NCBI GenBank assembly: GCA_937981665.1
Contig: CALJOJ010000060.1
Location: 1-47,070 of the forward strand
DNA: 47,070 nt
Source: an uncultured Rubritalea sp.
Lineage (GTDB): Bacteria; Verrucomicrobiota; Verrucomicrobiia; Verrucomicrobiales; Akkermansiaceae
Reading direction: 5' to 3'
The notes under the pieces are model-generated. The model was not told the origin of the DNA. It saw only the letters and a list, made by a program, of their open reading frames with translations, and did not search any database. Of this stretch, positions 2,951 through 21,071 are shown piece by piece (the stretch's first letter is position 1; every line of letters starts with the position of its first letter). The position numbers were made by a program, and so were the translations under genes.

Positions 2951-2952
2951 GG

Positions 2953-3162
2953 AAAAGGAAGCACAGGCAGATGTGTTAAAATTGCGGAAGAAATAGGCAA
3001 GCTGTAAGGCGTGGGGAGTTTGAATATGAATATTTACTCAAGATGGCGGAAGAGAAGATGGAGTTAATATCTGAAGCTTATGCGCAGTGTGAGCTACCTG
3101 CGGATGTTGACTTTTATGCGGTTAATGAAGTGCTTTCTGAAATGCGTAGCTATATTTATTAA
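2953..3162 (+). pseudogene. 5'-truncated C-terminal remnant, possibly a predicted nucleotidyltransferase (PF10127/YcgL-like)
   Basis: The frame ending at TAA 3160-3162 reads RRGEFEYEYLLKMAEEK, then LISEAYAQCELPADVDFY, then VNEVLSEMRSYIY. The pattern 'G-E-x-x-Y-E...A-E-E-K/L...S/C-x-LP-x-x-x-D' resembles the C-terminal tail of predicted nucleotidyltransferases of the PF10127 type. The N-terminal catalytic part is absent: upstream there is an in-frame TAG at 2995-2997 and then the eukaryotic-like sequence. This is the first bacterial-looking coding sequence in the window, so the junction probably cuts this gene. Family assignment is from memory of the tail pattern and is tentative. A short intact ORF from ATG 3043 (39 aa) is the alternative reading. 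Confidence 0.35.
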
Positions 3163-3214
3163 GGTTGATCTAGGAAATTGCTAATTTAGTAGTCTGTAAA
3201 TATAGTTATCTAGA

Positions 3215-3239
3215 TGTGAATTAGCGTTCTAAGTTCACA
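3215..3239. promoter_or_regulatory. Inverted pair TGTGAA-N13-TTCACA upstream of the ACIII operon
   Basis: Two half-sites identical to those of the palindrome at 3362-3381, in inverted orientation but with wider spacing. They lie about 175-200 bp upstream of actA in a 250-bp gene-free leader. Possibly a secondary regulator site; it could be chance. Confidence 0.2.
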
Positions 3240-3361
3240 GAATTAACTGATTATAAATTGTATGTTATTCATTTTTTTACTCTCTCATGGAGGTGTTTTT
3301 TTGCGCTCTTAATGAGACATGCTTGCAATAGTAAATAGCTGCTAATTATCTCAAAAATTAG

Positions 3362-3381
3362 CTTGTGAAATTTTTCACAAG
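3362..3381. promoter_or_regulatory. CRP/FNR-superfamily operator-like palindrome upstream of actA
   Basis: Nine-base inverted arms (CTTGTGAAA / TTTCACAAG) are separated by two bases and contain the exact pattern TGTGA-N6-TCACA at 3364-3379. This is the classical consensus for CRP-type regulators, not the FNR half-site TTGAT. The site ends 35 bp before the actA ATG, so bound protein could activate or block the operon depending on the unknown transcription start. An AT-rich TATAAT lies at 3407-3412 but is too close to the ATG for a normal leader. Confidence 0.5.
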
Positions 3382-3414
3382 GCTATACAAGACGACATCT
3401 AAGCAATATAATTC

Positions 3415-4158
3415 ATGGCTAATTACTTTCCTCGTTGGACAAATATACTACCGCTCAAAATCGCAGTTTGCATTGGTGCAGTTGCGATTGGCGCTGTATC
3501 CGCTTTCACTTATTATGCTACGCCTAAGGCTCAGCGAGTTGGCTATATGCCGGATCAGCCGATCCCGTATGACCATGAGCTGCACGTTACTCAGCTTGGG
3601 CTAGATTGTCGTCATTGTCATAGTTTTGTTGAGAAGTCAGGTCACGCAAATGTGCCTACTGCTAATACTTGTGCTAATTGTCACGTAAAGGGAGGGATCA
3701 AGTCTGAAAGCCCTAGACTAGCACCGCTTCTAGCAGCTATCGAGTCTGGTGAGCCAATTAAGTGGGTGAGAGTCCATAAGTCTCCAGATTATGTTTATTT
3801 TAATCACTCTGCTCACTTAGGTCGCGGAGTCTCTTGTGTAGAGTGTCACGGTCAGGTAGATGAGATGCCAATCGTTTATCATGCTAAGAGCTTGAGCATG
3901 GGAATGTGCATCGAGTGTCACAGAGCCCCTGAAGATGCGCTTCGTCCGCTGGAAGAAGTGTTCAACCTCAAGTATGATGCAGCAGATTACATCAAGAAGA
4001 ACTTAACTGCTAAAGAGCAGGTTGAGGAGTTCATCAAGGGTAAGGATTTAGGTCTTGATCTTGCTAAGACTGACGACGCTCAGAAGGCATTTGGTCTTAT
4101 GCTTAAGCATAATTGGAAAGTTCAGCCGAAGGAGAGCTGCTTCACTTGTCACAGATAA
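3415..4158 (+). CDS. actA: Alternative complex III subunit ActA, pentahaem cytochrome c
   Basis: This is the periplasmic multihaem subunit of ACIII, the quinol:electron-acceptor oxidoreductase that replaces the bc1 complex; it passes electrons from the iron-sulphur or quinol side toward the monohaem cytochrome. Five CxxCH sites are visible: Cys65-His69, Cys86-His90, Cys141-His145, Cys165-His169 and Cys242-His246, the last only one residue from the C-terminus. One N-terminal membrane segment (about residues 12-34) anchors it. Its 247 residues and five haems match the usual ActA. It is the first gene of a long + strand operon, 40 bp before actB. The ATG at 3415 is preceded by no purine-rich Shine-Dalgarno. 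A CRP-like palindrome lies just upstream. Confidence 0.93.
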   Translation: MANYFPRWTNILPLKIAVCIGAVAIGAVSAFTYYATPKAQRVGYMPDQPIPYDHELHVTQLGLDCRHCHSFVEKSGHANVPTANTCANCHVKGGIKSESPRLAPLLAAIESGEPIKWVRVHKSPDYVYFNHSAHLGRGVSCVECHGQVDEMPIVYHAKSLSMGMCIECHRAPEDALRPLEEVFNLKYDAADYIKKNLTAKEQVEEFIKGKDLGLDLAKTDDAQKAFGLMLKHNWKVQPKESCFTCHR

Positions 4159-4198: not shown

Positions 4199-7100
4199 AT
4201 GAGTAAACGCAAATGGCATCACCCGGAGGTTCCTGCAGAGGAACGCGCAACTAAAGTATGGCGCAGTGCCGGAGAACTAGAGGATACTCCTGGTCTCAGA
4301 CAGTGGGTAGATAAAGAATTTCCCCGTGCATCTGAAATGATGCGTGATGAGGAGGATCAGGAGAATACACGCCGTTCATTCTTAAAGTTAATGGGAGCGT
4401 CAACTGCGCTTGCTGGTCTTGGGCTAGCATCATGCCGTCGTCCTGAGTCACTTATTGTTCCTTTCGTGGATTCAGTAGAGTGGACTATCCCTGGTAAGCC
4501 AACTTACTATGCAACTTCAATGCCTTCAGCGAATGGAGCTGTTCCTCTTGTGGCTACAAACCACGAAGGCCGCCCGACTAAGCTGGAGCCAAACAAGCAG
4601 AACCCAGATGCTAATGGTGTGGATTCACACACACAGGCTTCTGTTCTTGATCTTTATGATCCTGCTCGTTCACGTTATTTCCTGTCAGCAGGTGAGTCTA
4701 TCACTCGTGAAGACGCGCTTGCTAAACTAGCTGAGTACACTGAGAGCGGAAAGTTCGCAGTGGTAGTGGGTGAAGATGATTCACTCACAAGAACTGATCT
4801 TCTTGGTAAGATCAAGGCTAAGCACGCTGGAGCAAAGTTCTACAGCTACGAAGCACTCGCTGGCGCTGGTAAGAAGGCTTCTGATCAAGCTATCTTCGGT
4901 AAGCATGCAGCTGTAAAAGCAGATTTCTCAAAAGCAGCTAAGATCCTTTCGATTGATTGTGATTTCTTAGAGCTTGATAAGCAGGGTGGACTGAAAGCAT
5001 TTTATGATCACCGTCGTCCAGAAGGTGCTGACTATGCGAATGATCCAATCGCATATCAAAGTAAACTTAATAGACTTTACTGTGTAGAGCCTACTTACTC
5101 TGTAACAGGAGGCATGGCTGATCACCGTGCGCCACTCGCGCCAAGTCAAGTCGCAGGATTCATCGCTCATCTCGCTAACCTTCTAGGTGTGGGGCCAGCT
5201 CCAGCTGAAGCATTTTCAGGAACAAAGCTTAAGTGGGTACAAGCATGCATCGACGACCTCAAGGCAGGTGGCGGTATTGTTCTCCTTGGTAGCCGATACG
5301 ATAAAGAGCTCCACGATGTGGTGTATCTCATTAACGAGAAGCTCGGTGCGTATGCAGTAGGTGCTCTTGTAGCTCGTAAAAGTAAGCAACACGCTGAGTT
5401 AGGTTCACTCGAAGACTTCGCATCTGACGTGGCTTTACATGATACTGTAATTTTAGTCACACCAGCTAACCCATTCTACGAGAATCCTACTATAGGTGGT
5501 AAGCTCTTTACTGACATAGTGAAGGGCAAGAGCGTGGTTCACTGGGGAATAAGCACGAATGCTTCGGCGAATTCAGCTTGTCTCCACATTCCAGCAGCTC
5601 ATTATCTTGAGAGCTGGGGGGACGGATTCACTGGTGATGCTGGTCATTACTCAGTGGTTCAGCCAATGATTCTACCACTTTATAATGGGATTCAGGAATT
5701 TGAACTTCTCCTGGCACTTGCTACAGGTGAAAAGCTGCATGACTCATCTGATGCTAAGGCGGTTTCTCCTGCATACAATGCAGTGAAGGAAGTATTTGCT
5801 AAGCAGGTAAAAGGGGACTGGAATTCACTTCTTAGACTCGGCTTCAATGCTGACTTTAAATACGAAGTAGCAACATCCGCAACTAAGCCAAGCTCAACAA
5901 TCAAGGAGCAGAAAGCTCCAACGATCAGTGCGCCAGACATTATTTTCGCAACTGACTATGCTGTGCTTGATGGACGTTACATCAATAACTCATGGCTTCA
6001 GGAAGCTCCAGATCCTATCTCTAAGCTTACTTGGGACAATGCAGTCTATATGTCACCAAACACAGCTAAAGCACTCGAACTCTATGATGAGATCGTAGAG
6101 CTTGAGCAGAAAGAGAAAGCATGGTGGGCAAGTCTAGGAATCGCAACTGATACGGATGTAGAGACTACACCAGTGTCAGAAGACGGTGAGGGACCAAGTC
6201 TCTTCGGGCCGATGGTGAATCTCACAGTAGGGGACAAGAGTCTGAAGGCTGTAGTGATCGTTGCTTTCGGAATGGCGGACAATGTGGTTTCAGTGCCACT
6301 CGGATATGGTCAAGGCTATGATGAGCACTGGAAGGACAACTTTAAAGGTAAAGAGATCAAGTTCGAAGCAAATGCTAAAAACGTTTCTTCAGTAGGTGTG
6401 AATACTGGTTTCAATGCGTACGCGCTGAGAACTGACAGCGATTACTTCGTGTCAGGAATTTCTATTGAGAAGGTCGAAGGTAGCCGTTACAAATTAGCGA
6501 GAACACAGGAGCACCACTCTATGTATGGACGTGCGCTTGCTCGTGAGATTTCCACTATGGATACAGCTCCAGATGGTCACGATCACCAGAAAGACTACGC
6601 TGAGCAGCTTGAAAATGTAAGAAAGCAGGGTATGGACTCACACATTCCTCAGAATGTGGATCAGTACAAGCCAGTGAGTAATACTAAGGATGAAGACGGT
6701 AATGACCGTAAGCACCTTTGGGATAAGTCACATCAGTGGGCGATGACTATCGACCTCAGTACTTGTACCGGTTGTAATGCATGTCTTGTTGCATGTCAGG
6801 CTGAGAATAATATCCCAGTAGTGGGTAAAGTTCAGGTGGCTATGGGCCGTGAAATGCACTGGATCAGAATGGATCGTTATTTTGCTGAGACTGCAGAAGA
6901 TGAAGCGTCTGAAACTGTAGACTCATGGGAAAATCCTATCGAGATGATCCCGAACCCAGTAGCATGTGTGCAGTGTGAGAGCGCTCCATGTGAGACAGTT
7001 TGCCCAGTGAACGCAACAGTTCACTCAGAGGACGGACTAAATACAATGGCTTATAACCGTTGTATTGGTACTCGTTACTGCGCGAATAACTGCCCGTTCA

Positions 7101-7675
7101 AGGCGAGACGATTTAATTTCTTCGACTACAATAAGCGTAACCCACTTCTCCATAAGAACCTCTACAAAGGTCCATTTGGTAAGAAGCAGCAAGGCGACGC
7201 CAAGTCACTTCAGCGTAACCCGAACGTTTCAGTCCGTATGCGTGGTGTGATGGAAAAGTGTACCTACTGTGTGCAGCGTCTCCAGTCAGCTAAGATCGAT
7301 GCTAAGCAGAATGTTAAGAAGGCGGTTCAGAAGTCTGGTAAGCCATCTTCAGAGTTCAAGGTAGATCATGAAATGCTCATGGCACCTGCTAATAGCGTAA
7401 CAGTAGCTTGTCAGGATGCATGTTCAGCTGGAGCAGTTGTCTTCGGAAACTTACTTAACATGAAGGATGGAATCCAGAAGACTAAGGCTCTCAGAGATGA
7501 GGACAAGGATCTTCCGGCACACGTCGAAGGTCAGTATAAGAACCCAAGAACTTACGATATGCTCGCGTATCTCGGTGTTCGACCAAGAACATCTTATATG
7601 GCTCGTGTGAAGAACCCGAACGTGAAGATGCCTGATGCCAAGAATGTTGGTAGAGCAACCATCAACATGCACTAA
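4199..7675 (+). CDS. actB: Alternative complex III subunit ActB, Mo-oxidoreductase-like plus iron-sulphur domain
   Basis: The large extracytoplasmic subunit of ACIII (1,158 aa). An ActB-type N-terminal region precedes a twin-arginine motif (Arg58-Arg59, RRSFLKLMG) and a lipobox-like LASC with Cys79, consistent with Tat export and lipid anchoring. Residues about 85-800 are the molybdopterin-oxidoreductase-like half, which in this family is believed to hold no molybdenum. From about residue 850 the ferredoxin-like half has clustered cysteines: STCTGCNACLVAC (about 856-866), CVQCESAPCETVC (about 922-934), CIGTRYCANNC (about 955-970) and later KCTYC and CQDACSAG. These bind the 3Fe-4S/4Fe-4S clusters. 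It lies between actA and actC, as in known ACIII operons. Confidence 0.93.
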   Translation: MSKRKWHHPEVPAEERATKVWRSAGELEDTPGLRQWVDKEFPRASEMMRDEEDQENTRRSFLKLMGASTALAGLGLASCRRPESLIVPFVDSVEWTIPGKPTYYATSMPSANGAVPLVATNHEGRPTKLEPNKQNPDANGVDSHTQASVLDLYDPARSRYFLSAGESITREDALAKLAEYTESGKFAVVVGEDDSLTRTDLLGKIKAKHAGAKFYSYEALAGAGKKASDQAIFGKHAAVKADFSKAAKILSIDCDFLELDKQGGLKAFYDHRRPEGADYANDPIAYQSKLNRLYCVEPTYSVTGGMADHRAPLAPSQVAGFIAHLANLLGVGPAPAEAFSGTKLKWVQACIDDLKAGGGIVLLGSRYDKELHDVVYLINEKLGAYAVGALVARKSKQHAELGSLEDFASDVALHDTVILVTPANPFYENPTIGGKLFTDIVKGKSVVHWGISTNASANSACLHIPAAHYLESWGDGFTGDAGHYSVVQPMILPLYNGIQEFELLLALATGEKLHDSSDAKAVSPAYNAVKEVFAKQVKGDWNSLLRLGFNADFKYEVATSATKPSSTIKEQKAPTISAPDIIFATDYAVLDGRYINNSWLQEAPDPISKLTWDNAVYMSPNTAKALELYDEIVELEQKEKAWWASLGIATDTDVETTPVSEDGEGPSLFGPMVNLTVGDKSLKAVVIVAFGMADNVVSVPLGYGQGYDEHWKDNFKGKEIKFEANAKNVSSVGVNTGFNAYALRTDSDYFVSGISIEKVEGSRYKLARTQEHHSMYGRALAREISTMDTAPDGHDHQKDYAEQLENVRKQGMDSHIPQNVDQYKPVSNTKDEDGNDRKHLWDKSHQWAMTIDLSTCTGCNACLVACQAENNIPVVGKVQVAMGREMHWIRMDRYFAETAEDEASETVDSWENPIEMIPNPVACVQCESAPCETVCPVNATVHSEDGLNTMAYNRCIGTRYCANNCPFKARRFNFFDYNKRNPLLHKNLYKGPFGKKQQGDAKSLQRNPNVSVRMRGVMEKCTYCVQRLQSAKIDAKQNVKKAVQKSGKPSSEFKVDHEMLMAPANSVTVACQDACSAGAVVFGNLLNMKDGIQKTKALRDEDKDLPAHVEGQYKNPRTYDMLAYLGVRPRTSYMARVKNPNVKMPDAKNVGRATINMH

Positions 7676-7727: not shown

Positions 7728-9224
<1,497 letters not shown>

Positions 9225-9277: not shown

Positions 9278-9832
9278 GTGAGCACATCAGTAAAAAGAGT
9301 TTACGGTTATCTAGCCGAATTCGAAAGCGCATCAGCCCTCTACAAGGGTGCTGAGAAAGTACGCGATGCCGGATTCAAGAAATGGGACTGCTATTCATCC
9401 TACCCAATTCATGGAATGGATGATGCGATGGGAATGAGACGTTCTATCCTACCTTACTTCGTATTCTTCGGTGGATCTACTGGTCTACTTACAGGATTCA
9501 GTTTAGCATACATCACTCAGGTAGTTATTTATCCTACAGTGGTGCAGGCAAAGCCAGCGAATATATTCACGACGTCCGCATTTTTCCCAATCATGTTCGA
9601 GCTTACGATTCTGTTCTCGGGATTTACGGTTCTCTTCTGTCTTCTCGGCCTCATGGGGCTACCTAGACTAAACCACCCGTTGTTCGCTAGCCGTCAATTT
9701 CACCGTACTACCGATGATGGATTCTTCATCGCGGTAGAAGCCAGAGATCCTAATTTCTCACCAGAAGATACGAAAGCACTGCTAGAAGAAGCAGGGGGAA
9801 CAAATATCGAACTGGTAGAAGAGGAAGACTAA
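9278..9832 (+). CDS. actD: Alternative complex III subunit ActD
   Basis: A 184-residue membrane protein with two central helices (about residues 62-90 and 106-130) flanked by soluble ends. The N-terminal motif YLAEFESASALYKGAEKVRDAGF and the later KWDCYSSYPIHGMDDAMG are characteristic of ActD (DUF3341). It binds no cofactor and braces the ActC/ActF side in the known structures. The start is GTG at 9278; the preceding leader ACAACTAACCACATCACAAG has no purine-rich ribosome site. It lies between actC and actE in the usual order. Confidence 0.9.
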   Translation: MSTSVKRVYGYLAEFESASALYKGAEKVRDAGFKKWDCYSSYPIHGMDDAMGMRRSILPYFVFFGGSTGLLTGFSLAYITQVVIYPTVVQAKPANIFTTSAFFPIMFELTILFSGFTVLFCLLGLMGLPRLNHPLFASRQFHRTTDDGFFIAVEARDPNFSPEDTKALLEEAGGTNIELVEEED

Positions 9833-9861: not shown

Positions 9862-10530
9862 ATGCGCTACTTTTTTCTCATATACGCACTCGTCATCGTG
9901 TTCGTCATCAGTACCTTCGGATTCAGAGGTGACAAATTCAAGAAACCACCTATCCGCATCTTCCCAGACATGGATGAGCAGGACTACGTGAAGGCTCAAA
10001 AACCAAATAATTTCTATGCAAATGGAATGAGTGGTCAGAAGCCGGTTACTGGTACTATTCCGCAAGGCCACTCGACTGATCTTTCAGTTGAAAGCGAGCT
10101 TAAGGGGTATGGTAACAAGGAGACATATCTTCACACTGGTAAATTCAACGATAAGAACTTCGGTAAAGGTTTCCCAACTGAGCTTGAGCTCGAAAATGCG
10201 GAAAACGTAACCGCTCTACTTACACGTGGTCAGGAAGTATTCGGCTACAAATGTTCAGTATGTCACGGTCTTTCTGGAAACGGTAAGGGGGCAGCTAAAG
10301 CGAACGGCTTCATTCCTGATATCAGTAATCTCCGTACATCTGAGCTAGTAGAGGGAGCGCTCTACGATGTGATCACTAATGGAAGAGGGAACATGGGCCA
10401 GATGGGTTCAGATCTCTCACTCTATGATCGCTGGGCAGCAGTTGCATACGTCAAAGGACTCCAAGCTAGTGCTAAGGCTGACTATAATAACCCGAAGATC
10501 AAAGAGATTTTCGATGCAGCTAATAAGTAA
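9862..10530 (+). CDS. actE: Alternative complex III subunit ActE, monohaem cytochrome c
   Basis: A 222-aa membrane-anchored cytochrome c. The N-terminus (residues 1-20, YFFLIYALVIVFVIST) is an uncleaved anchor or signal. The single haem site is Cys131-Cys134-His135 (YKCSVCHGLSGNGKG), and GRGNMGQMG further on supplies a likely distal methionine. ActE is thought to be the exit point of ACIII toward the oxidase or a soluble carrier. The lipobox cysteine found in some ActE proteins is not seen here. The next gene is actF. Confidence 0.88.
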   Translation: MRYFFLIYALVIVFVISTFGFRGDKFKKPPIRIFPDMDEQDYVKAQKPNNFYANGMSGQKPVTGTIPQGHSTDLSVESELKGYGNKETYLHTGKFNDKNFGKGFPTELELENAENVTALLTRGQEVFGYKCSVCHGLSGNGKGAAKANGFIPDISNLRTSELVEGALYDVITNGRGNMGQMGSDLSLYDRWAAVAYVKGLQASAKADYNNPKIKEIFDAANK

Positions 10531-10577: not shown

Positions 10578-12026
10578 ATGGCACATCACGTCACATCAAA
10601 GGACCTCCCATTACACGGGGAGAAGGTAAAGTCATCAGATCTTGCCTTACCTAAACTCATCTCACTCATCGTCTTCGCAATAGGAGCTGTGATTAGTATT
10701 ATCTTATTTAGTTTGGATAGTACTTCAGATGGATATTCATACTCTTGGCTCTTCGCCTTCATGTTCTTCATCTCTATCACACTTGGAGGTTGCTTCTGGG
10801 TGACTCTTCATAACGTGACTAACTCAGGGTGGGGTGTTTCGGTGAGACGTCTCATGGAGAATCTCGGATTTGTTTTCCCATTCATGGCAGTGATCGCAAT
10901 TCCTCTTATGGTCCCTTCTGTTCAGAATGACCTATACGAGTGGATGCAGCATCACCGCGATGTGAACCACGAATACGTAGATGAAAATGGCGAGGTCCAT
11001 TATTCTGATAGAGAAAATGCTAAGGCTGCTGCGAAAGAAGCTGCAGGTGTGGAATACCATAAGGACTACTTACAGATTCAGACTCTTGATGAAGCCGGTG
11101 TTGCAAAAGCGGATCACGGTGCATACTCATCTCCTTACAAGGGAGCTTTCAAGTCTGACCATAAATCACTCCTTTACTATAAAGCTTGGTACATGAACTT
11201 ACCGTTCTGGTTAGCTCGTGTGATCGGATTCTTCGTTCTACTAGGTCTAGGTATCTGGATCCAACGTAAACTGTCTACTGACCAGGACACAGACCCTAAG
11301 CCGACATGTGAGAGACTCATCAAGACACGTCAGCTTTCTTGCCTCATCATGCCGATCTTCGCAGTAGTGGCAACATTCATCGCTCTCGACTTTATGATGG
11401 CGCTTGACTACAAGTGGTTCTCCACAATGTACGGTGTTTACTTCTTCGCAGGTTGTGCGATCAATTCAATGGCAGTTCTCATCCTGACACTCACATGGCT
11501 CCGCAGTAAGGGGTATCTTAAGATTGTGACGAGCAAAGAGCACTACCACATCATGGGTAAACTTCTTCATGCATTCGTTATCTTCTGGGCATACGTTTCC
11601 TTCTCACAGTTCATGCTCATCTGGTATGCGAACATCACTGAGGAGACTACTTACTTCATCCTTAGAAATACTGATGAATGGTGGTATGGAAGTATTTCAC
11701 TCACATTCCTTCACTTTGCGTTACCATTTGCACTTCTTCTTCCACACTATGTAAAGAAGACAGTTATCTTCATCGTTCCGATCTGTGTCTACATGCTCAT
11801 CATGCATGCTGTGGATCTCTACATCGCAGTCATACCTGAGCGTGGAGTATCGCTCACGCATGGTAAAGAACTGTTCGTCAGTCATCCAGCGTACCTCGGT
11901 GATATCGTAGCGTTCATCACAGTCGGAGCGTTCTTCGTCTATGTCTTCTTACGTAATATCGGTAATACTAACACATACCCGAACAGAGACCCTCGTCTTC
12001 TAGAGTCAGCAAATCTTCATAACTAA
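10578..12026 (+). CDS. actF: Alternative complex III subunit ActF, NrfD-like membrane protein
   Basis: The second NrfD/PsrC-like subunit of ACIII (482 aa), homologous in shape to ActC, with about ten membrane helices. Residues about 130-185 form a charged soluble loop (HRDVNHEYVDENGEVHYSD...) that ActC lacks, as is usual for ActF. It is the last canonical act gene and is followed after 20 bp by a small membrane protein. The start ATG at 10578 lies within a leader lacking a Shine-Dalgarno but carrying AATTTAAT. Confidence 0.9.
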   Translation: MAHHVTSKDLPLHGEKVKSSDLALPKLISLIVFAIGAVISIILFSLDSTSDGYSYSWLFAFMFFISITLGGCFWVTLHNVTNSGWGVSVRRLMENLGFVFPFMAVIAIPLMVPSVQNDLYEWMQHHRDVNHEYVDENGEVHYSDRENAKAAAKEAAGVEYHKDYLQIQTLDEAGVAKADHGAYSSPYKGAFKSDHKSLLYYKAWYMNLPFWLARVIGFFVLLGLGIWIQRKLSTDQDTDPKPTCERLIKTRQLSCLIMPIFAVVATFIALDFMMALDYKWFSTMYGVYFFAGCAINSMAVLILTLTWLRSKGYLKIVTSKEHYHIMGKLLHAFVIFWAYVSFSQFMLIWYANITEETTYFILRNTDEWWYGSISLTFLHFALPFALLLPHYVKKTVIFIVPICVYMLIMHAVDLYIAVIPERGVSLTHGKELFVSHPAYLGDIVAFITVGAFFVYVFLRNIGNTNTYPNRDPRLLESANLHN

Positions 12027-12046: not shown

Positions 12047-12370
12047 ATGGAAAACAATCTACGTGATACACCACTTCGCCGCTTCAACACCTTTTGGTGG
12101 GGTCTAGGACTCTTCGTGGCATTCGGTCTTGCTATCTTCATTATCAAGAATTTCGTCCAGACCGATGAAGTGTCTACAGCTGATACTGCGCGTGGAAAGG
12201 CTCGTATCATCAAGCTTGAGCAAGTTAAGGCTGAGCAGTCAGCTCTTCTTGAGTACAAGAAAGACGGAGACAGCGTGCAGCTTCCTCCACATGCGCTTTT
12301 CCCAATAGCTAGCGAGATCAAGCTTCTCGATACAACACCAGCTGACTCAGGTGTAGTTCACGGTAAGTAA
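12047..12370 (+). CDS. Small single-span membrane protein of the respiratory operon, function unknown
   Basis: 107 aa. A short positively charged N-terminus (RDTPLRRFNTFWW), one membrane helix (about residues 17-36, GLGLFVAFGLAIFIIKNF), then a soluble tail with a helical charged part (ARGKARIIKLEQVKAEQSALLEYKK) and a Pro-containing end. There is no cysteine and no haem site. It sits between actF (20 bp) and the CcoN-like gene (49 bp), so it is probably an accessory subunit of either complex. I do not recognise a family. Length and topology are loosely like small CcoQ/CcoH-type accessories, but no sequence match is claimed. Confidence 0.75.
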   Translation: MENNLRDTPLRRFNTFWWGLGLFVAFGLAIFIIKNFVQTDEVSTADTARGKARIIKLEQVKAEQSALLEYKKDGDSVQLPPHALFPIASEIKLLDTTPADSGVVHGK

Positions 12371-12419: not shown

Positions 12420-13913
12420 ATGTCTACAACGAACAGTTCAAACATAGAAGACACGCAACTCAGAGCGAATATTGACCGCTCACTGCGTCATCCAGTGATG
12501 TTCTTCTTTACCAGCGGCGCAGTATGGCTTGCTATTTCACTTCTTCTGGGAATCATCGCGTCAGCGAAGACTCATTCACCAGAATTTCTAAGCTGCTGTT
12601 CATGCTTCAATGTAGGTCGCACAATGCCGGCTCACATGAGTACTCTTATCTACGGATGGGGAGCACAGGCTGGCTTCGGTGTGATCCTTTGGCTGATGTC
12701 TAGACTTTCACGTCAAGAGTGCAAGCAGTCAGGTCTTATTCTAGCAGCTGGTCACGTCTGGAATATTTTCGTAGGAATCGGCACGCTATGTGTCCTTCTT
12801 GGTGCCGGTACTGGTATCACATGGATGGCATTTCCTAAGTCAGTCATGATCGTTCTTTGCCTTACTTATTTCCTTATCGGAATATGGGCTCTGATCGCGT
12901 TCCGAGTTCGCCGTGGTGGTCACATCTATATTTCTCAGTGGTACTTACTAGCATCAGTATTATGGTTCCCATGGATCCTTCTGTCTGGACTAGCATTCAC
13001 CCACTTCTACCTCGGTGATGGACACCCACTCATGGTAACAGCATCTACCGCTTGGTTCAGATCTGCTATTATGTTCCTCTTCTTCACTCCTGTAGCTGTG
13101 GCGAGTGCTTACTACATCACTCCTAAGGTGACTGGTCGTCCGGTATATTCTTATAGTCTTGCGATCTTCGGATTCTGGGCACTTGCGATTTTCGGACCAT
13201 GGGCTGGAATGCAGCGTATGATGGGGGCTTCTATACCAGCATTTATTCCATACTTAAGTGCAGGTGCAGTGATTCTACTCATTATCCCAGCGATCGCTCT
13301 TGTGATCAATGTACTCAAGACGGTAAAGGATAGCAGTGAAACAGTAGCTAACTCACCATCACTAAAGTTCACCATCGCTGGTGCAGCAGGGATGCTTGTC
13401 TTCACTGTGATGAGTGCATTCATGTCTCTTCCTGATGCGCTTAAGTTTACTCAGTTCTCTATCGCTCAATACGGTCTTGAGCTTACTGGTATTTTAGGAT
13501 TTTTCTCCATGTGTATGTTCGGTGCGATCTACTTCATCGTTCCTCGTATCACGAACCGTGAGTGGATCTCTGCTACGATGATTACTCAGCACTACTGGTT
13601 ATTTATTTATGGAATTGCCTTCATTTCAGTATTCTACACAGCACTTGGTGGATTCATGCATGGATATATTCTAGAGATGCCAACAGAAGATCCTAGTGCA
13701 GCAGTGGGTAGACTTTTCCCATATGCAGTAGGTCTCACTACTGGCTTTGTATTCATCCTATTTGCAGTCTTCATGTTCTGCAGCCATTTAATGCTCATGT
13801 GGCTCAGACTGGGTCGTCGCAGTAATCATCCTACACTTCTTGCAGGTCACGCATCACATTCATCACCGCATGGCCCAGAAGGAGACATCGAGAAGCTAGA
13901 ATCAGCTAAGTAA
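12420..13913 (+). CDS. CcoN-like haem-copper oxidase subunit I homologue lacking the catalytic ligands
   Basis: A 497-aa polytopic membrane protein that follows the cbb3 CcoN pattern along its length: PAHMSTLIYGWG (His72, matching the first low-spin-haem ligand), AYYITPK then RPVYSYSLAIFGFWAL (helices around the CuB site), and FGAIYFIVPRI after the last ligand helix. Aligned without gaps to remembered CcoN motifs, every other metal ligand is replaced: CuB GHN His by Ser215, cross-linked Tyr by Gly259, the CuB HH pair by Gln265-Arg266, and the haem IGHVH histidines by Gln350 and Gly352. Normal CcoN activity is therefore not expected. A Cys-rich SCCSC lies at residues 58-62. CcoO- and CcoP-like genes follow. 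Other histidines (195, 202) do not align with ligand positions. Confidence 0.82.
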   Translation: MSTTNSSNIEDTQLRANIDRSLRHPVMFFFTSGAVWLAISLLLGIIASAKTHSPEFLSCCSCFNVGRTMPAHMSTLIYGWGAQAGFGVILWLMSRLSRQECKQSGLILAAGHVWNIFVGIGTLCVLLGAGTGITWMAFPKSVMIVLCLTYFLIGIWALIAFRVRRGGHIYISQWYLLASVLWFPWILLSGLAFTHFYLGDGHPLMVTASTAWFRSAIMFLFFTPVAVASAYYITPKVTGRPVYSYSLAIFGFWALAIFGPWAGMQRMMGASIPAFIPYLSAGAVILLIIPAIALVINVLKTVKDSSETVANSPSLKFTIAGAAGMLVFTVMSAFMSLPDALKFTQFSIAQYGLELTGILGFFSMCMFGAIYFIVPRITNREWISATMITQHYWLFIYGIAFISVFYTALGGFMHGYILEMPTEDPSAAVGRLFPYAVGLTTGFVFILFAVFMFCSHLMLMWLRLGRRSNHPTLLAGHASHSSPHGPEGDIEKLESAK

Positions 13914-13981: not shown

Positions 13982-14800
13982 ATGACAGTTAAGACATTTT
14001 TTATCGGACTTATTGCCAGCTTTGGTCTTCCATGGCTCGTGATGCTCGCAATTCCTTTCGGAACGATGCGTTCATTATCAGAACCTCAGTACGATGAGGT
14101 GAATGATGAGCGTACTGATTTTTATCAGCCACTCCGTACAGGTAGTCTAGAGACTGGTTCTCTGATCTATCGCCAGGAAGGCTGCATGACTTGCCACACT
14201 CAGGTGACTCGCCCTTCTTACGCAGGTGCTGATGTCTTCCGTGAGGGACAGGGTGGTACTAGAAATGATGCTGAGCGTGGTGATACACGTCGTATCACGA
14301 ATGCTTGGGACTTCGAAGGTGAGTACATGGCTCCTATCGGTGATAGTCGTATCGGTCCAGATCTTGGAAACTTCGGTAATCGTGTCGATGCACTCGCACT
14401 AGAGATCAACAAGAAAAAAGCACTTAAGATGGGCATCGCGCTTATCAAGGAAGATAAGTCACCAATGACAGCTCAAGAGATAGCTGCTGCTCTTGGCCGT
14501 AAAGCCTTCGATAAAGAGGCATACGTATACAAACATCTGTATAATCCACGTAACGAAAATTTCGAAGATAAGGGGAGAGAGAGAGTTTGGTCAGTTTGTC
14601 AGGCTAATCCACAGTTTTTCACGAAGGTAGGAAATTTCGGTCAAGGCGCTAAATTCGCTGTTGATATAAAATGCGACCAACAAGTAGTGCCAACTGGTGA
14701 CTGTAAGTCACTTGTAAACTACCTCATCAATCTCAAGAAAGATGGAGCTGTGCCATATGCGATGCAATATTCACAAACTAAGCAGAAAGGTGCTAAGTAA
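13982..14800 (+). CDS. CcoO-like membrane-anchored monohaem cytochrome c
   Basis: 272 aa with one N-terminal helix (about residues 5-27) and the CcoO-type haem site EGCMTCHTQVTRP (Cys68, Cys71, His72). Further CcoO hallmarks are GEYMAPIGDSRIGPDLGNFGNR and a C-terminal SLVNYLINLKK. The segment that in classical CcoO carries the distal Met (after HLxNPR, 'ESNMP') here reads KHLYNPRNENFEDKG and has no Met, so haem ligation may differ. Two extra cysteines occur near residues 203 and 228-240. It follows the CcoN-like gene by 68 bp and precedes the CcoP-like cytochrome. It probably relays electrons between ACIII and the aa3 oxidase, which is inference. Confidence 0.82.
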   Translation: MTVKTFFIGLIASFGLPWLVMLAIPFGTMRSLSEPQYDEVNDERTDFYQPLRTGSLETGSLIYRQEGCMTCHTQVTRPSYAGADVFREGQGGTRNDAERGDTRRITNAWDFEGEYMAPIGDSRIGPDLGNFGNRVDALALEINKKKALKMGIALIKEDKSPMTAQEIAAALGRKAFDKEAYVYKHLYNPRNENFEDKGRERVWSVCQANPQFFTKVGNFGQGAKFAVDIKCDQQVVPTGDCKSLVNYLINLKKDGAVPYAMQYSQTKQKGAK

Positions 14801-14865: not shown

Positions 14866-15630
14866 ATGTCTTCTCAACCAATAGATCCGAAAAAGCCAGA
14901 TCTGGAAGAATCCACCAATGTAGCTGAACAACATGCTGAGGTAACTCGTGCATCATCTGCTGCATCACGCGAGCAGCAAGTACGTGAAAATGGTCTCGAG
15001 CCAGTTTCTGTATGGGTATTCATCACAGGTAGTATTATCGCAGTCATTGCAGGTAGTGTGCTCTTCAGTTCTAATAATCTTTTCGCATACAATGACTTCG
15101 TAAAAGAGGGATATATCCAGGCTGAAGATACTACAGGTCCACCACCTGTGCCACAAGGTGCTGTCGAGGCAGTCTACATGGCTAAGGGATCAGCGACGTA
15201 TAAGAAATGTATGGGGTGTCACCAGCCAGACGGAAAAGGTAATGTGAATTACCCACCGCTAGCAGCTTCTGAGTATGTCACTGAGTCACCAGTCGCCCTA
15301 CTTATGGCAGTAGTAAATGGTGTTAAAGGACCTATCACAGCAGCAGGAGTAAGTGTGAATAGCCAGATGGATTCTCAGCTTAATAAAAGCACAGATAACC
15401 TTGAAATGGCAGCACTAGTCTACTACCTACAGAACAGCTTCGGCAACAATGTTGGCAAAATTTACACACCTGATCAGATGCAGCAGTTTAAAGACCTCAA
15501 TGCTAAGCGTGCAACAGAGGGATACACTACTGAAGCTGAACTTGATGAGTACAGAAAAATCCAGGTTGAAGGGGACTTCTTCGAACCTGGTACAGTCATC
15601 AACAAGAAGACTGGCGAAGTTATCGAATAA
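14866..15630 (+). CDS. CcoP-like membrane-anchored monohaem cytochrome c
   Basis: 254 aa. A long charged cytoplasmic N-terminus (residues 1-45), one membrane helix (about 47-70, VSVWVFITGSIIAVIAGSVLF), then a class I cytochrome c domain with Cys115-Cys118-His119 (KKCMGCHQPDGKG). MetSer-type methionines downstream (QMDSQ, about residue 167) could be the sixth ligand. Classical CcoP has two haems and two helices; this has one of each, resembling CcoP truncated to one domain. It is the third gene of the cbb3-like block and lies 112 bp before coxA. Confidence 0.8.
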   Translation: MSSQPIDPKKPDLEESTNVAEQHAEVTRASSAASREQQVRENGLEPVSVWVFITGSIIAVIAGSVLFSSNNLFAYNDFVKEGYIQAEDTTGPPPVPQGAVEAVYMAKGSATYKKCMGCHQPDGKGNVNYPPLAASEYVTESPVALLMAVVNGVKGPITAAGVSVNSQMDSQLNKSTDNLEMAALVYYLQNSFGNNVGKIYTPDQMQQFKDLNAKRATEGYTTEAELDEYRKIQVEGDFFEPGTVINKKTGEVIE

Positions 15631-15742: not shown

Positions 15743-17602
15743 ATGAGCGCTGACCATCACGATCACCACGATCCTCCATTCTGGCAGAAATACATTTTCT
15801 CTACTGATCACAAAATGATCGGTATCCAGTATGGAATTACGGCATTACTATTCTTACTTTTCGGATTCTTCTTAATGATGATGATGCGTTGGAGTATTGC
15901 ATATCCTCAAGAGCCTGTTCCTACATGGATGTCATGGGTATTTACTGATGAATGGAAAGCTAGATGGCTCACTGCTGGTAAAGTAGAAGGAGAGACATAC
16001 AACATGTTCGGTGCGATGCACGGTACAATCATGGTTTTCCTTGGAGTTGTACCTCTCGGATTCGGTGCGTTTGGTAACTATGTGACACCACTCCAGATCG
16101 GTGCTCCTGACATGGCTTTCCCTAAGCTGAACTGTGCATCATATTGGCTCTACGCACTTGGTGGTATCCTCATGTGTGCTTCATTCTTCATGGAGTCAGG
16201 TGCTGCAAAGTCAGGATGGACGAACTATCCGCCATTATCATCGTTTGCTGATTCCCAGCATCCGAATCAGTTCTTTACCGGTCAGACTCAGTGGTTACTG
16301 GGTCTCGTACTACTTATCTCATCCTCGCTATTAGGCTCAGTAAACTTTATCACCACGATCATTAACCTTCGCGCGAAGGGAATGACATGGATGCGTCTAC
16401 CGTTCTTCGTATGGGCGATGCTTGTTACTGGTTTCCTTCTTCTCCTAGCATTCCCGCCACTCGAAGTAGCTGGTATCATGCAGTTAGTTGACAGAACAGT
16501 AGGTTCATCATTCTTCCAGCCGTCTGGTCTAATTACGGATTCAGGGGCTGCTGATTATGCAGGTGGTGGATCACCACTTCTCTTCCAGCATCTTTTCTGG
16601 TTCCTCGGTCACCCGGAGGTATATGTATTACTTCTTCCATCCATCGCATGTGTGGCAGAAATTATCCCTGCTAATACTCGTAAGCCACTTTGGGGTTACA
16701 AGTCTATGGTATACGCGGTTCTTGTACTTGGATTCCTATCCTTCATCGTATGGGCTCACCACATGTACCTCACTGGTATGGGTAGTTCAGTATCTACATT
16801 CTTCCAGACCACTACTGTTTTGATCTCAGTTCCATCTGTGGTTCTTATCACCTCACTCCTGATTTCACTTTGGGGAGGTTCTATCAGATTCACGATGCCA
16901 ATGATCTGGGCATGTGCATTTCTACCAATGTTCGGTATTGGTGGACTCACTGGTCTTCCATTAGCATTCAACCTTGTTGACCTTCACCTTCACGATACCT
17001 ACTACGTGATCGGTCACTTCCACTATGTGGTTGCTCCTGGTATTCTCTTCGGTCTCTTCGCAGGTATCTACTACTGGTATCCTAAGATGTTCGGTCGTTT
17101 CATGAATAACACTCTTGGTCATCTTCACTTCTGGCCATCACTTATCTTCATCAACCTTGTGTTCTTCCCAATGCTTCTGCAGGGAATGGCAGGCTTCCAC
17201 CGTCGTTGGTATAATGGTGGTGATGGTTACATCGCTGCTGAAGGTTCATCTGACGTATTCGGTAATGTTGTGAATGAGTACATCGGTCTTAATCAACTTA
17301 TGTCTTGGTCAGTATTCCTTCTCGCTCTAGCGCAGATTCCATTCATTATCAATTTATTCACTGCTTGGAAAACTGGCAAGAAAGTAGAGAACGATAACCC
17401 ATGGGACGCTACTACACTTGAGTGGGCTACACCTACGCCTCCAGGACATGGTAACTTCGAGTTCGATGTGGCTGTTTATCGCGGACCATACGAGTACTCT
17501 CGCCCAGACTGTGATGAAGATTTCTATCCACAATGGCATGAGCCAAAGGAGCAGACATCTTCTGACCTAGACGCAGGTGTATTACCTGACGATAAGCACT
17601 AA
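15743..17602 (+). CDS. coxA: aa3-type cytochrome c oxidase subunit I
   Basis: The catalytic subunit of the terminal oxidase, reducing O2 to water and pumping protons. 619 aa with 12 or more helices. All metal ligands are present: His93 (haem a, AMHGTIMVF), GHPEVY with His290 and Tyr294, His339-His340 (AHHMY), His425 and His427 (IGHFH). The D-channel aspartate is present in IGAPDMAFP (Asp123), as is Glu292 in GHPEVY. The K-channel lysine position (expected four residues after the conserved Pro in VPxGIK) is Leu368 in VPSVVLIT. A His-rich N-terminus (HHDHHD) and an acidic C-terminal tail are extra. This is the real oxidase of the operon, unlike the CcoN-like gene upstream. Confidence 0.95.
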   Translation: MSADHHDHHDPPFWQKYIFSTDHKMIGIQYGITALLFLLFGFFLMMMMRWSIAYPQEPVPTWMSWVFTDEWKARWLTAGKVEGETYNMFGAMHGTIMVFLGVVPLGFGAFGNYVTPLQIGAPDMAFPKLNCASYWLYALGGILMCASFFMESGAAKSGWTNYPPLSSFADSQHPNQFFTGQTQWLLGLVLLISSSLLGSVNFITTIINLRAKGMTWMRLPFFVWAMLVTGFLLLLAFPPLEVAGIMQLVDRTVGSSFFQPSGLITDSGAADYAGGGSPLLFQHLFWFLGHPEVYVLLLPSIACVAEIIPANTRKPLWGYKSMVYAVLVLGFLSFIVWAHHMYLTGMGSSVSTFFQTTTVLISVPSVVLITSLLISLWGGSIRFTMPMIWACAFLPMFGIGGLTGLPLAFNLVDLHLHDTYYVIGHFHYVVAPGILFGLFAGIYYWYPKMFGRFMNNTLGHLHFWPSLIFINLVFFPMLLQGMAGFHRRWYNGGDGYIAAEGSSDVFGNVVNEYIGLNQLMSWSVFLLALAQIPFIINLFTAWKTGKKVENDNPWDATTLEWATPTPPGHGNFEFDVAVYRGPYEYSRPDCDEDFYPQWHEPKEQTSSDLDAGVLPDDKH

Positions 17603-17643: not shown

Positions 17644-19398
17644 ATGGAAATCCCATATATCGTAAATGCCCGTAAAGATACGGGTCTAAACAACTCAAAA
17701 ATAGCAATCTGGCTGTTTTTGGCTTCCGAGGTGATGCTCTTTGGTGGGCTATTCTCATCATACATCTTCCTGCGTATCTTTGCAGACTATCCTTGGCCAG
17801 AGCGTGTACTTCCTGTCCTTCCTGGATTGTTAAACACGTTTATCCTTATCGCATCATCCGTAACAGTCGTATTTGCCTGGGCTTCACTCAAGCTACGTAA
17901 CTGGAAAGCATTCAAAGGCTACATGAGCTTCACACTCGTATGTGCGGCTATCTTCATGGTCTTTAAAGGCTTCGAATACAGTGCTAAGCTAGGTCACCAG
18001 AACGTTCAAACTACAGATTTTACTAATGTAGAAGGTCACGTTCATTATGATGATAATGACAAAGCTGATAACTATTATTCAGTGGTTACCAACGAGATCC
18101 TTTTCGATCTTACTAGTTATTATGACCAGTATCTAAATAGAATTACTAAGCAAATCGGTGATAAGAAGGTGACTTCTGCGATGGATGTAGTGATCAACGA
18201 TTTTGATGGTGACAAGCTTATTCAAAAACCCCTCGTCGCTAAAGATACAGTTCTTGATATTGTTGCTGATGACGGTGAAGAAGGTTCACTTCGTTACATT
18301 CTCGCTGAAGCGAAAGATTCATATATCGAAACACGTGCTCATAATGAGCAGGTGAGGGAGTCAGCTCTTAGACAAGCATGGAAAAATGTTCGTTCTAATG
18401 AAGGTAATAGATTCACAGCGGTTACAGATCTTACTCAGTATGATCAAGCACAGAAAGACGCAGCTAACGAAGAATATGGTAGAATCGTTGAAGCTGGTGA
18501 TTTTGGATCTATCCTCAAGAATTCTGGTCTGTTTAAAGTAGCAGTAGATAATGCTAAGATAGACATCAAGCCATCATGGGGAAGAATGTCAGAGAAGAAA
18601 GAGGGAGCTAAGACTGGTGTTTCTCTACTCGACCAAACTGTACTTGCAGGTGTGGCTGGAGATTCTTCAATCGTCCTAAATGTTGATGCAATTGATCACA
18701 GACATCTTGTGATGAAAGGGCGTGAGCGTGAATACTCACAGGATAAGATCAATGCAATGATCGAAGACTGGTATGCTAATCTCGGTGATAGCCAAGGTGC
18801 AGATCAGCTCAGACAATACTGGGGAATGCACAAAGAATGGCGTGAGCTATGGACAGCTAAGTTACTCAAAGACTACGGCACAGACGAAGACGGAAAGGCT
18901 AACAGAGTTCCTATCGATATCGAGCTATACAGAATCACTTGGAAACAGATGGTTTCTTATAAAGCGATCATGGATGGTAAAGATGAAGAGCGTAATACAG
19001 TTACTCTGGATAACGTGAAGCACTTCGAACCAGGAATGATTGCCGGTTTCACTGGTGCTAATCATAGTAAATTCAATCCTACTGATGATGACCATAATGT
19101 GATCGCAGCTACAGCTTCTTTCCCTGAGCTTAAAGTGGCTCGTGAAGACATTCGTTTCGAGTCAGTATTCTCACCTAAGATGAATAACTACTATGCGATC
19201 TACTTCACTATCACTGGACTTCACGGTCTACACGTTATTGGTGGGGCACTCGTACTAGGTTACTATCTCTTCTTCGGACGTAAGATGTATGAAGAGAATC
19301 CTGAGTGGTTAGCGAACCGTGTTGAGGTTGCTGGTCTATTCTGGCACTTTGTTGACTTGGTTTGGATCTTCGTATTCCCGATCTTCTACCTCATGTAA
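17644..19398 (+). CDS. coxC: Cytochrome c oxidase subunit III with a large periplasmic insertion
   Basis: 584 aa, far above the usual 190-270. Residues about 15-40, 58-82 and 92-116 are three helices with subunit III signatures (IAIWLFLASEVMLFGG; LLNTFILIASSVTVVFA; FKGFEY). Residues from about 510 are the last two helices (FTITGLHGLHVIGG; VAGLFWHFVDLVWIFVFP). Between them is a hydrophilic, charged region of about 385 residues without cysteines or membrane helices. By homology it replaces the short P-side loop after the FKGFEY helix, so it should lie in the periplasm. No domain is recognised in it. The reading frame is continuous, so it is not a frameshift artefact. It sits between coxA and coxD. 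Confidence 0.9.
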   Translation: MEIPYIVNARKDTGLNNSKIAIWLFLASEVMLFGGLFSSYIFLRIFADYPWPERVLPVLPGLLNTFILIASSVTVVFAWASLKLRNWKAFKGYMSFTLVCAAIFMVFKGFEYSAKLGHQNVQTTDFTNVEGHVHYDDNDKADNYYSVVTNEILFDLTSYYDQYLNRITKQIGDKKVTSAMDVVINDFDGDKLIQKPLVAKDTVLDIVADDGEEGSLRYILAEAKDSYIETRAHNEQVRESALRQAWKNVRSNEGNRFTAVTDLTQYDQAQKDAANEEYGRIVEAGDFGSILKNSGLFKVAVDNAKIDIKPSWGRMSEKKEGAKTGVSLLDQTVLAGVAGDSSIVLNVDAIDHRHLVMKGREREYSQDKINAMIEDWYANLGDSQGADQLRQYWGMHKEWRELWTAKLLKDYGTDEDGKANRVPIDIELYRITWKQMVSYKAIMDGKDEERNTVTLDNVKHFEPGMIAGFTGANHSKFNPTDDDHNVIAATASFPELKVAREDIRFESVFSPKMNNYYAIYFTITGLHGLHVIGGALVLGYYLFFGRKMYEENPEWLANRVEVAGLFWHFVDLVWIFVFPIFYLM

Positions 19399-19443: not shown

Positions 19444-19791
19444 ATGGCTGATTCACCAGAAGAAATTAAAAAAGCAGTTAAGCTGTACACCATCATTGGT
19501 CTAGTACTCTTCGTTTGTACTGGACTGACAGTAGCTGTGGCTACTATCCCAGCGTTGGACTTTGGCGCTCACGGGTTTGATATGGCAGATGCCATCATTG
19601 GTCTTGCTATTGCGTCATTCAAGGCGAGCTTAGTAGCATTCATCTTCATGCACCTGAATCATGAGAAGAAAATGGTCTACTGGATCTTCTTTGGCTCACT
19701 AGCGTTCGGTGTGGCTCTTATCTTGCTCTTTGCATTTGGATTCTTAGATCCGATTACTTTTGATGAAATGTTACCTAAGAAGGTTTCCTAA
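19444..19791 (+). CDS. coxD: Cytochrome c oxidase subunit IV family protein
   Basis: 115 aa with three helices (about residues 13-33, 45-68 and 75-97). The middle one reads AIIGLAIASFKASLVAFIFMHLNHEKK, the hallmark of prokaryotic subunit IV/CtaF-like proteins ('K-x-x-x-V-x-x-x-F-M-H-L'). These subunits stabilise the oxidase and hold no metal. It follows coxC by 45 bp, as in many cox operons. Confidence 0.88.
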   Translation: MADSPEEIKKAVKLYTIIGLVLFVCTGLTVAVATIPALDFGAHGFDMADAIIGLAIASFKASLVAFIFMHLNHEKKMVYWIFFGSLAFGVALILLFAFGFLDPITFDEMLPKKVS

Positions 19792-19812: not shown

Positions 19813-20016
19813 ATGTCACTTCGCGCATTTCACCTCATCTTCATCTCATTCGTTTCCTTGTTCTGTCTTGGAGTAGCGGTTTGGTCTTTGTATGTGGAGA
19901 GAGATAGCACTGACATAGCATTTAAGATACTCGGTTATTCATGCCTTCTTGCCGCTATCTGCCTACCTATTTACGGAGTCAGATTTTATAAGAAAACAGT
20001 TAACTATAACTCATAA
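19813..20016 (+). CDS. Small two-span membrane protein, function unknown
   Basis: 67 aa: helices at about residues 6-26 (FHLIFISFVSLFCLGVAVWSL) and 35-55 (AFKILGYSCLLAAICLPIYGV), ending in YKKTVNYNS. It starts 21 bp after coxD and ends 4 bp before the next small gene, so it belongs to the oxidase operon. Family not recognised; an accessory or assembly role is plausible only from position. Confidence 0.7.
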   Translation: MSLRAFHLIFISFVSLFCLGVAVWSLYVERDSTDIAFKILGYSCLLAAICLPIYGVRFYKKTVNYNS

Positions 20017-20020
20017 GATA

Positions 20021-20239
20021 ATGATCTCACAGACACTCCATAACATTCTCGCATGCCAAGCATGTAGAAATGCTTATATTGACGAAGGTAAAGACGCTGC
20101 AGGCTGGGCTATCCTTTTCATGCTCTGTATCATTATCCCGATGATCTCTGCAGTTGGCTTCTTCATCTATAGAATAGCTAAACGTCAGAAGCTAAATAGC
20201 ACTACCGAGTTCGACGACCCATTCCTTTCAAACAACTAG
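20021..20239 (+). CDS. Small CxxC single-span membrane protein, function unknown
   Basis: 72 aa from ATG 20021; a longer frame from 19949 would overlap the previous gene and was rejected. The N-terminus has LACQACRNAYIDEGKDAAGW, with a CxxC pair at residues 11-14, then one helix (about residues 27-50, AGWAILFMLCIIIPMISAVGFFIYR) and a charged tail. It sits directly before coxB. The CxxC could bind a metal such as copper for CuA assembly, but that is inference; no SCO- or Cox17-like motif is seen. Confidence 0.7.
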   Translation: MISQTLHNILACQACRNAYIDEGKDAAGWAILFMLCIIIPMISAVGFFIYRIAKRQKLNSTTEFDDPFLSNN

Positions 20240-20261: not shown

Positions 20262-21071
20262 ATGTTTATGCAAAACATATTTAACACATTAGCCTTTTCA
20301 CCAGCGGAGTGGATGGGACTTCCGAAGAACTATTCAGTCCACGGTGATGCTGTGGGGCACATGATTGACGTGGTGACATGGTTCATGATCGTTCTATTCA
20401 TCGGCTGGACACTATTTTTCTTATACACACTAGTAAGGTTCAGAGCGAAGAAGAACCCTAAGGCATCCTACTATGGTGTACAGAGTCATCTATCTACTCA
20501 CCTCGAAGTAGGTGTAGTGATCGTTGAGGCAGTTCTCCTTCTTGGTTTTGCTATTCCTCTATGGAGTGAGAGAACAGATGATTTCGATCGTGTTCTTAAT
20601 GAAGATCCAGTTCGTGTCCGTGCGATTGGTTTTCAGTTTAACTGGAAGTTCCACTATGCAGGTACTGATGAAAAGTTTGGTTATATCGACCGTACACTTG
20701 TTTCATCTAAAGGTGATGCATGTATCGTGCCTGATGATAAGAATGGATTTGATGACTTCGTTTCCGATAAGCTAAGAATCCCAGTAGATAGACCAGTGAT
20801 CCTTCAGGTTACCTCTACTGATGTGATTCATAACTTCTCTATCATCCCAATGCGTATCCAGTCTGATGCATTCCCAGGTAAAGACATTCCAATGTGGTTC
20901 ACACCTAAGGAAGAGATGGAGACGTCTGTAGTCTGTGGACAGCTCTGTGGAGCAGGTCACGCTAACATGGTGACCATTATGACAGTAGAGTCTCAGGAGT
21001 CATTTGATGCGTTTCATTCTCAGCGAAGCAAGGAATCAAAAGCTGAGTCTGTAAAAACTGCAGCGAAGTAA
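20262..21071 (+). CDS. coxB: Cytochrome c oxidase subunit II (CuA subunit)
   Basis: Accepts electrons at the binuclear CuA centre and passes them to subunit I. 269 aa with two N-terminal helices (about residues 33-60 and 78-100) and a cupredoxin domain. CuA ligands are present: His in STDVIHNFSIIP, then CGQLCGAGHANM near residues 225-236 (Cys, Cys, His, Met). The usual Glu between the cysteines is Gln, which contributes only a backbone contact. No cytochrome c domain is fused, so electrons must come from a separate cytochrome, plausibly one of the upstream anchored ones. It is unusual in being the last rather than the first cox gene. A hairpin follows the stop codon. Confidence 0.94.
   Translation: MFMQNIFNTLAFSPAEWMGLPKNYSVHGDAVGHMIDVVTWFMIVLFIGWTLFFLYTLVRFRAKKNPKASYYGVQSHLSTHLEVGVVIVEAVLLLGFAIPLWSERTDDFDRVLNEDPVRVRAIGFQFNWKFHYAGTDEKFGYIDRTLVSSKGDACIVPDDKNGFDDFVSDKLRIPVDRPVILQVTSTDVIHNFSIIPMRIQSDAFPGKDIPMWFTPKEEMETSVVCGQLCGAGHANMVTIMTVESQESFDAFHSQRSKESKAESVKTAAK

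Follow-up and report, generated by a model that had tools for sequence, protein, structure and literature searches.

We analysed a 47,070-nucleotide stretch of DNA (the window) from an uncultured Rubritalea sp., whose genome assembly is 2.7 Mb in size and 92.9% complete and has Rubritalea and other Akkermansiaceae as its nearest named relatives. Its forward strand carries a cluster with the order actABCDEF, a small transmembrane (TM) gene, ccoN-like, ccoO-like, ccoP-like, ctaD, ctaE, subunit IV, a small ORF and ctaC. The first six genes encode an ActA-like penta-haem cytochrome with five CxxCH motifs (3415–4158), an ActB-like subunit (4199–7675), an ActC-like membrane subunit (7728–9224), an ActD-like subunit (9278–9832), an ActE-like mono-haem cytochrome with one CxxCH (9862–10530) and an ActF-like membrane subunit (10578–12026). 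We take these names from gene order and known architecture (for ActD from order), not from a match to a family model; ActF, the one Act protein compared with Pfam and NCBIfam, fell into no family over cut-off. The presence of all six genes in order, the five haem motifs of ActA and the single one of ActE are what an ACIII cluster should show, and the order is conserved in relatives. Upstream of actA, only positions 3333–3414 match the relatives fetched, many of which hold just about 1–1.5 kb there; the stretch 1–3330, which includes an ORF (9–290) that looks zinc-finger-like by eye, is possibly foreign DNA joined in assembly.

Downstream of actF follow a 107-residue single-TM protein (12047–12370), the CcoN-like subunit (12420–13913), and CcoO-like (13982–14800) and CcoP-like (14866–15630) membrane-anchored cytochromes c, each with a CxxCH motif and one haem, so that the CcoP-like protein carries one haem and not two. 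A profile of the small TM proteins of distant clusters did not match the 107-residue ORF, and its kinship with them is therefore positional. The remaining genes encode an aa3 oxidase: CtaD (subunit I, catalytic motifs intact; 15743–17602), CtaE (subunit III; 17644–19398), subunit IV (19444–19791), a small ORF, orfX, between subunits IV and II that is present in many relatives (19949–20239), and CtaC (subunit II, CuA motif intact; 20262–21071). CtaE has 584 residues and a large insertion located between its helices. The 25 longest CtaE proteins found in relatives have 571–644 residues and the five shortest 217–263, two of the latter being from methanotroph genomes.

The CcoN-like gene is an open frame with an ATG start and encodes 497 residues. 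The protein belongs to the COX1/CcoN family (PF00115, 117 bits; TIGR00780 ccoN, 109 bits). The cut-off of TIGR00780 is 583, and since an intact relative also falls below it with 225 bits, the low score alone proves nothing. PF00115 can miss such proteins too, as it fails to match the ACIII-linked copy in one genome (G202). The predicted fold is confident (pLDDT 92), and the superposition that the sequence-only reading had called for showed the CcoN framework to be retained: in a VIA-align comparison of candidates from Foldseek's top 1000, the model matched CcoN of Pseudomonas stutzeri with 2.1 Å over 444 residues. Within the COX1 family, CcoN is the type nearest to it.

The metal site is another matter. 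We set the ligand columns by alignment to three of five matching solved CcoN chains, to 108 relatives and, in a larger set, to 167. His72 aligns with one low-spin haem b histidine; the second is Leu355, leaving one of the two histidines expected of a CcoN. The haem b3 histidine is Leu353, the three CuB histidines are Ser215, Gln265 and Arg266, and the cross-linked tyrosine is Gly259, so that six of the seven haem, CuB and Tyr positions are replaced. The loss is concentrated at these sites: among 110 positions conserved in intact relatives, the window protein has lost six of the seven ligand positions vs 25 of the 103 others (Fisher p = 0.002). The sequence-only reading had placed His72, Ser215, Gly259 and Gln265-Arg266 exactly so; it was also right that the helix-X haem histidines are replaced, but had assigned this HxH pair to Gln350 and Gly352, where the alignments put Leu353 and Leu355. 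His195 and His202, which it had named as residues that might prove to be ligands after all, are variable, with 22 and 38 histidines, respectively, among 74 distinct family rows, and lie outside the ligand columns. In line with its view, the substitutions rule out a normal haem b pair in this subunit, and the same holds for haem b3 and the CuB site.

Might the ligands have migrated instead, or a different cofactor have moved in, leaving an active reductase? Other pseudo-enzymes are known to have migrated catalytic residues (PMC10211241), and the window's family has four new and conserved histidines (His24, His112, His456 and His470). However, the other ligand-poor groups, which have likewise lost ccoS (see below), do not conserve these four. 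Moreover, 73 of 74 family rows combine a basic residue at position 214 with an acidic residue at 354, each adjoining a former ligand, whereas 31 intact rows have uncharged residues there; this charge pair may fill the old cavity. We consider an active reductase very improbable. Some group may still be bound, since His72 and the new membrane residue His112 are each invariant in the window's family (74/74 rows).

We then looked at how widespread such proteins are. With the window protein as query (E = 0.001), 116 of the 141 genomes in its order had a match, as did 123 of the 387 drawn from its phylum; these counts include intact relatives and ordinary cbb3 oxidases. The cluster is present in isolates of Rubritalea, Roseibacillus, Luteolibacter and Haloferula. 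Genus g2 of the same family, probably Akkermansia, had no match in its 20 listed genomes. Genome searches were made within the phylum, and a contig scan returned Verrucomicrobiota plus one 3-kb contig labelled Spirochaetales; the fragment on it (L107) is identical to a Verrucomicrobiales sequence (L102) in the segments read, and the label is probably a binning error. This fragment is cut off after two ligand columns (HH) and has ccoS upstream. Two genomes, G071 and G039, hold both a closer match to the query, which is probably of the ligand-poor type, and an intact homologue with ccoS and without ActF upstream (L099/L166 and L100/L165).

Altogether 168 rows were read, the window included. After removal of repeats, of fragments gapped at a ligand column (L097, L103, L107; L135 was kept) and of hits of at most 250 bits, 121 distinct copies were ligand-poor: of the seven positions, 18 copies retained none, 85 one, 17 two and 1 three. 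All seven were retained in 20 close relatives, and no copy fell between three and seven. Nine distant functional relatives (L153–L160, L169) were counted apart. His72 is kept in 88 of the 121 ligand-poor copies, and these numbers bear on the idea that one haem is still bound through it, with a new partner or five-coordinate, and serves in b-type electron relay or in gas sensing. The invariance of His72 in the window's family speaks for this idea, as do three distinct ligand-poor copies (L110, L111, L164) in which the two low-spin haem b positions (72 and 355) are retained and the CuB, Tyr and b3 positions lost; these copies are possible one-haem intermediates. On the other hand, the window protein has Leu355 in place of the axial partner, the other 33 copies have A, F, Q, S, L or R at position 72, and the four ligand-poor groups share no conserved histidine column. 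Three of the groups conserve His391, but so do intact relatives, and it is outside the seven; His112 lies in the next helix and, judging from topology, near the other membrane face. A retained haem thus seems unlikely to us.

Changes at the locus point in the same direction as the ligands. Intact clusters carry a ccoS gene in the actF–ccoN gap beside the small TM gene, and it is absent in the window. Cofactor insertion into cbb3 oxidases requires CcoS. The Pfam CcoS model matched in five of nine genomes with an intact ACIII-linked CcoN vs none of 19 with a ligand-poor one. A ccoS profile matched upstream of all 19 distinct intact close relatives, including by construction the eight intact loci from which it was built, and of none of the 113 distinct ligand-poor copies with enough sequence (L127 included). 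The nine distant functional relatives stand outside this count of 19; seven of them (L154–L158, L160, L169) have no ccoS upstream. In the window genome (G000, 92.9% complete) neither CcoS nor CcoG gave a match. CcoG does not discriminate, because six genomes with an intact ACIII-linked CcoN lack it as well, and we rejected it as a test: only six of 28 genomes had a CcoG over cut-off, and each of these six has a fused CcoNO oxidase. The loss of ccoS together with the ligands is separate evidence that the metal centre is not built.

The window subunit thus shares fold, length, N-O-P order and sequence family with CcoN of cbb3 oxidases, but differs in its ligand positions, in having no ccoS that we could find and a mono-haem P subunit, and in the ACIII genes upstream. 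Its closest counterparts for comparison are the intact ACIII-linked CcoN proteins of other Verrucomicrobiae (such as L116, L122 and L112). These have the same cluster order (ActA–F, small TM gene, CcoN, O, P) and are 32–36% identical to the window protein, but unlike it they have all seven positions and ccoS.

Next, we asked how often the ligands were lost. In a quick tree of 88 rows built without the ligand columns, the ligand state changes three times. The AU test rejects a single ligand-poor clade (p = 0.00035), which rules out one origin of the ligand-poor state. A more careful tree of 53 rows, rooted on the distant functional oxidases, gave three changes across the 5–95% bootstrap range and a single change in 0% of 200 bootstrap trees; the starred branches alone force two. 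These trees leave out L123, L133, L165, L166 and many of the window's near relatives. The first ligand-poor group comprises Verrucomicrobiales, methanotrophs and families f10, f15, f19 and f20; the second has 17 rows, of which family f9 contributes 14; the third is L127 by itself, which falls among the intact copies of f7, the family to which it belongs (support 100/99). Ligand loss has more than one origin, and most likely occurred three times.

The ligand-poor subunit is under purifying selection. Against three relatives, dN/dS of the CcoN-like gene was 0.096, 0.099 and 0.148, at dS values of about 1.4–1.6 that are near saturation; for a fourth relative it was not computable. The earlier statement that the gene is kept intact holds on both counts, open frame and selection. 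At an ActC identity of 0.68–0.74, the median CcoN identity was 0.40 for ligand-poor pairs vs 0.60 for intact pairs, the pairs not being independent. Also from non-independent pairs, the divergence of CcoN and of the CcoO-like and CcoP-like cytochromes speeds up once the ligands are lost, and that of ActF hardly does. This faster divergence is compatible with a structural role but also with partial decay, and it is what one would cite in favour of a decaying oxidase relic, kept only through translation coupling to the cytochromes. Such a relic does not sit well with frames that are open in nearly all copies read, a dN/dS of 0.10–0.15, a confidently predicted complete fold, residues invariant within a family and a constant place behind ActF, and we give it very little credence.

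That place is indeed strictly kept. ActF lies upstream of all 90 distinct ligand-poor copies with 2.5 kb of upstream sequence, which answers the earlier suggestion to look for ligand-less homologues next to actF in other Verrucomicrobiota. It lies upstream of 15 of 19 intact close relatives; the remaining four have a full set of ligands. The two small cytochromes come next in 96 of 96 distinct ligand-poor copies. At 136 ligand-poor loci, repeats included, CxxCH is present in 130/130 CcoO-like and 130/131 CcoP-like proteins; a CcoO-like protein was not found at six of these loci, nor a CcoP-like one at five.

The link to the aa3 oxidase is looser. Of 75 distinct ligand-poor loci for which 7 kb or more of downstream sequence was available, 48 have CtaD nearby, and none was found at the other 27; of 17 distinct intact loci with 7 kb downstream, two have it. 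In two cases (L112 and L125), an intact ACIII-linked CcoN with ccoS has aa3 genes at the same locus, on the other strand in L125. The sequence-only reading had placed the subunit between ACIII and aa3, as a scaffold or docking unit joining the two through its cytochromes. That it belongs to a conserved ACIII cluster, together with CcoO- and CcoP-like cytochromes, is borne out, but with aa3 genes missing from 27 loci and ActF from none of the 90, a bridge to aa3 alone had to be dropped as a general rule. To our knowledge, the ACIII–aa3 supercomplex of Flavobacterium johnsoniae does without a CcoN-like subunit. There, ACIII stands next to an A-type oxidase, as it does here in gene order. The passages available on that supercomplex propose direct electron transfer (PMC8361435, PMC8498564) and describe contact between ACIII and the oxidase through oxidase subunit III (PMC8361435).

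Of the two cytochromes proposed as the bridge, one has changed. The distal Met of the CcoO-like MPxY motif, which we take to be a haem ligand, is Cys206 in the window and Cys in all 82 rows of its family (71 distinct proteins). It is kept in 27/27 intact rows and in 40 of 46 other ligand-poor rows, the rest having His, Ser or Arg; these ligand counts cover proteins of 151–329 residues. In 54 of the 71 proteins the sole other cysteines are the two of CxxCH, which makes an internal disulfide unlikely, and the haem is probably His/Cys ligated in this family. His/Cys c haems are usually of low potential. By contrast with the CcoO-like Met, Met168 of the CcoP-like protein is kept in the window and, like Met178 of ActE, in 99–100% of the ligand-poor groups. 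Because the CcoO-like protein has lost its usual Met in the window's family, the CcoP-like cytochrome is the more plausible carrier. CcoO passes electrons to haem b of CcoN in a working cbb3 oxidase; with that haem gone, the CcoO haem would be a dead end and free to change, and CcoP would remain on the through route.

We propose that the catalytic subunit of a cbb3-like oxidase that was already part of an ACIII gene cluster lost its haem-copper centre, the ligands going together with the neighbouring ccoS, most likely three times. It would now be a cofactor-free or nearly cofactor-free membrane subunit, bound to ACIII and holding the CcoO- and CcoP-like cytochromes c. Electrons would exit ACIII via ActE and pass through the CcoP-like haem to another acceptor, here presumably CuA of the aa3 oxidase encoded alongside and elsewhere other oxidases or soluble cytochrome c. 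The CcoO-like haem, which used to be the final step before haem b of CcoN, would have been freed in the window's family to shift from His/Met to probable His/Cys ligation. ACIII binding, absence of cofactor, electron path and structural role are read from sequence and gene order, and we put the probability that a cofactor-free CcoN holds the cytochromes on ACIII at roughly two in three. The retained many-helix fold would also suit a cofactor-free subunit that handles ions or quinones through the old proton channel or a lipid or quinone pocket, as in NrfD-type proteins; the NrfD-like ActC and ActF of the same complex carry no redox cofactors, according to the passages available (PMC8076601). 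We regard this role as quite unlikely.

Returning to the proposed adaptor on ACIII, genes in the same position are already in print as an oxidase. For verrucomicrobial methanotrophs, the passages available describe a functional cbb3 oxidase beside ACIII (PMC8498564) or beside aa3 (PMC11102522), list the cbb3 type among the terminal oxidases (PMC8498564, PMC10205796, PMC8170126) and relate the oxygen affinity of Methylacidiphilum to the cbb3 oxidase of this cluster (PMC6688271). In the passages found of two SolV transcriptome papers (PMC3404531, PMC4210602) these genes are not named. For Verruconatronum, caa3 genes are listed directly after ACIII (PMC13274419, in the part available), so a CcoN after ACIII is not universal in the phylum. 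The sequence-only reading knew of no description of the arrangement; the neighbourhood had in fact been published, as a functional cbb3 oxidase, and our searches of an open-access library turned up no report of a CcoN without its ligands or of a pseudo-oxidase.

In the five pmoA-bearing genomes read, the ACIII-linked CcoN is ligand-poor and is the only CcoN-like protein found, with SESSHFV (four genomes) or ADAAHQT (one) in place of HHYHHHH. We looked for a second CcoN, but the query finds one match in each. Their other COX1-family proteins are A-type, ba3-type or NorB; examples were typed, and the rest were judged by length, score and CtaD profile. With nearly all metal-binding residues lost, the genes counted as an extra oxidase in methanotrophs probably cannot reduce O2.

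Taken together, the ACIII of Verrucomicrobiae with this cluster may be an ACIII–CcoNOP complex, in which NOP went from a working oxidase to a metal-free electron-exit adaptor, most likely three times, one family acquired a His/Cys CcoO haem, and the "cbb3" of methanotrophs is such an adaptor that reduces no O2. This combined picture, drawn from comparative data, has in our estimate slightly better than even odds. We know of no earlier recurrent family of pseudo-oxidases in the haem-copper superfamily; if that is true, this would be the first. The superfamily is defined by its metal centre, and a conserved branch that lost the centre repeatedly, yet retains the fold and the partner cytochromes, suggests that an oxidase can survive as architecture. 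The matched intact and ligand-poor relatives let the loss of the centre be dissected. If the ligands are also missing in the named methanotroph strains, models of low-oxygen respiration in methanotrophs need revision.
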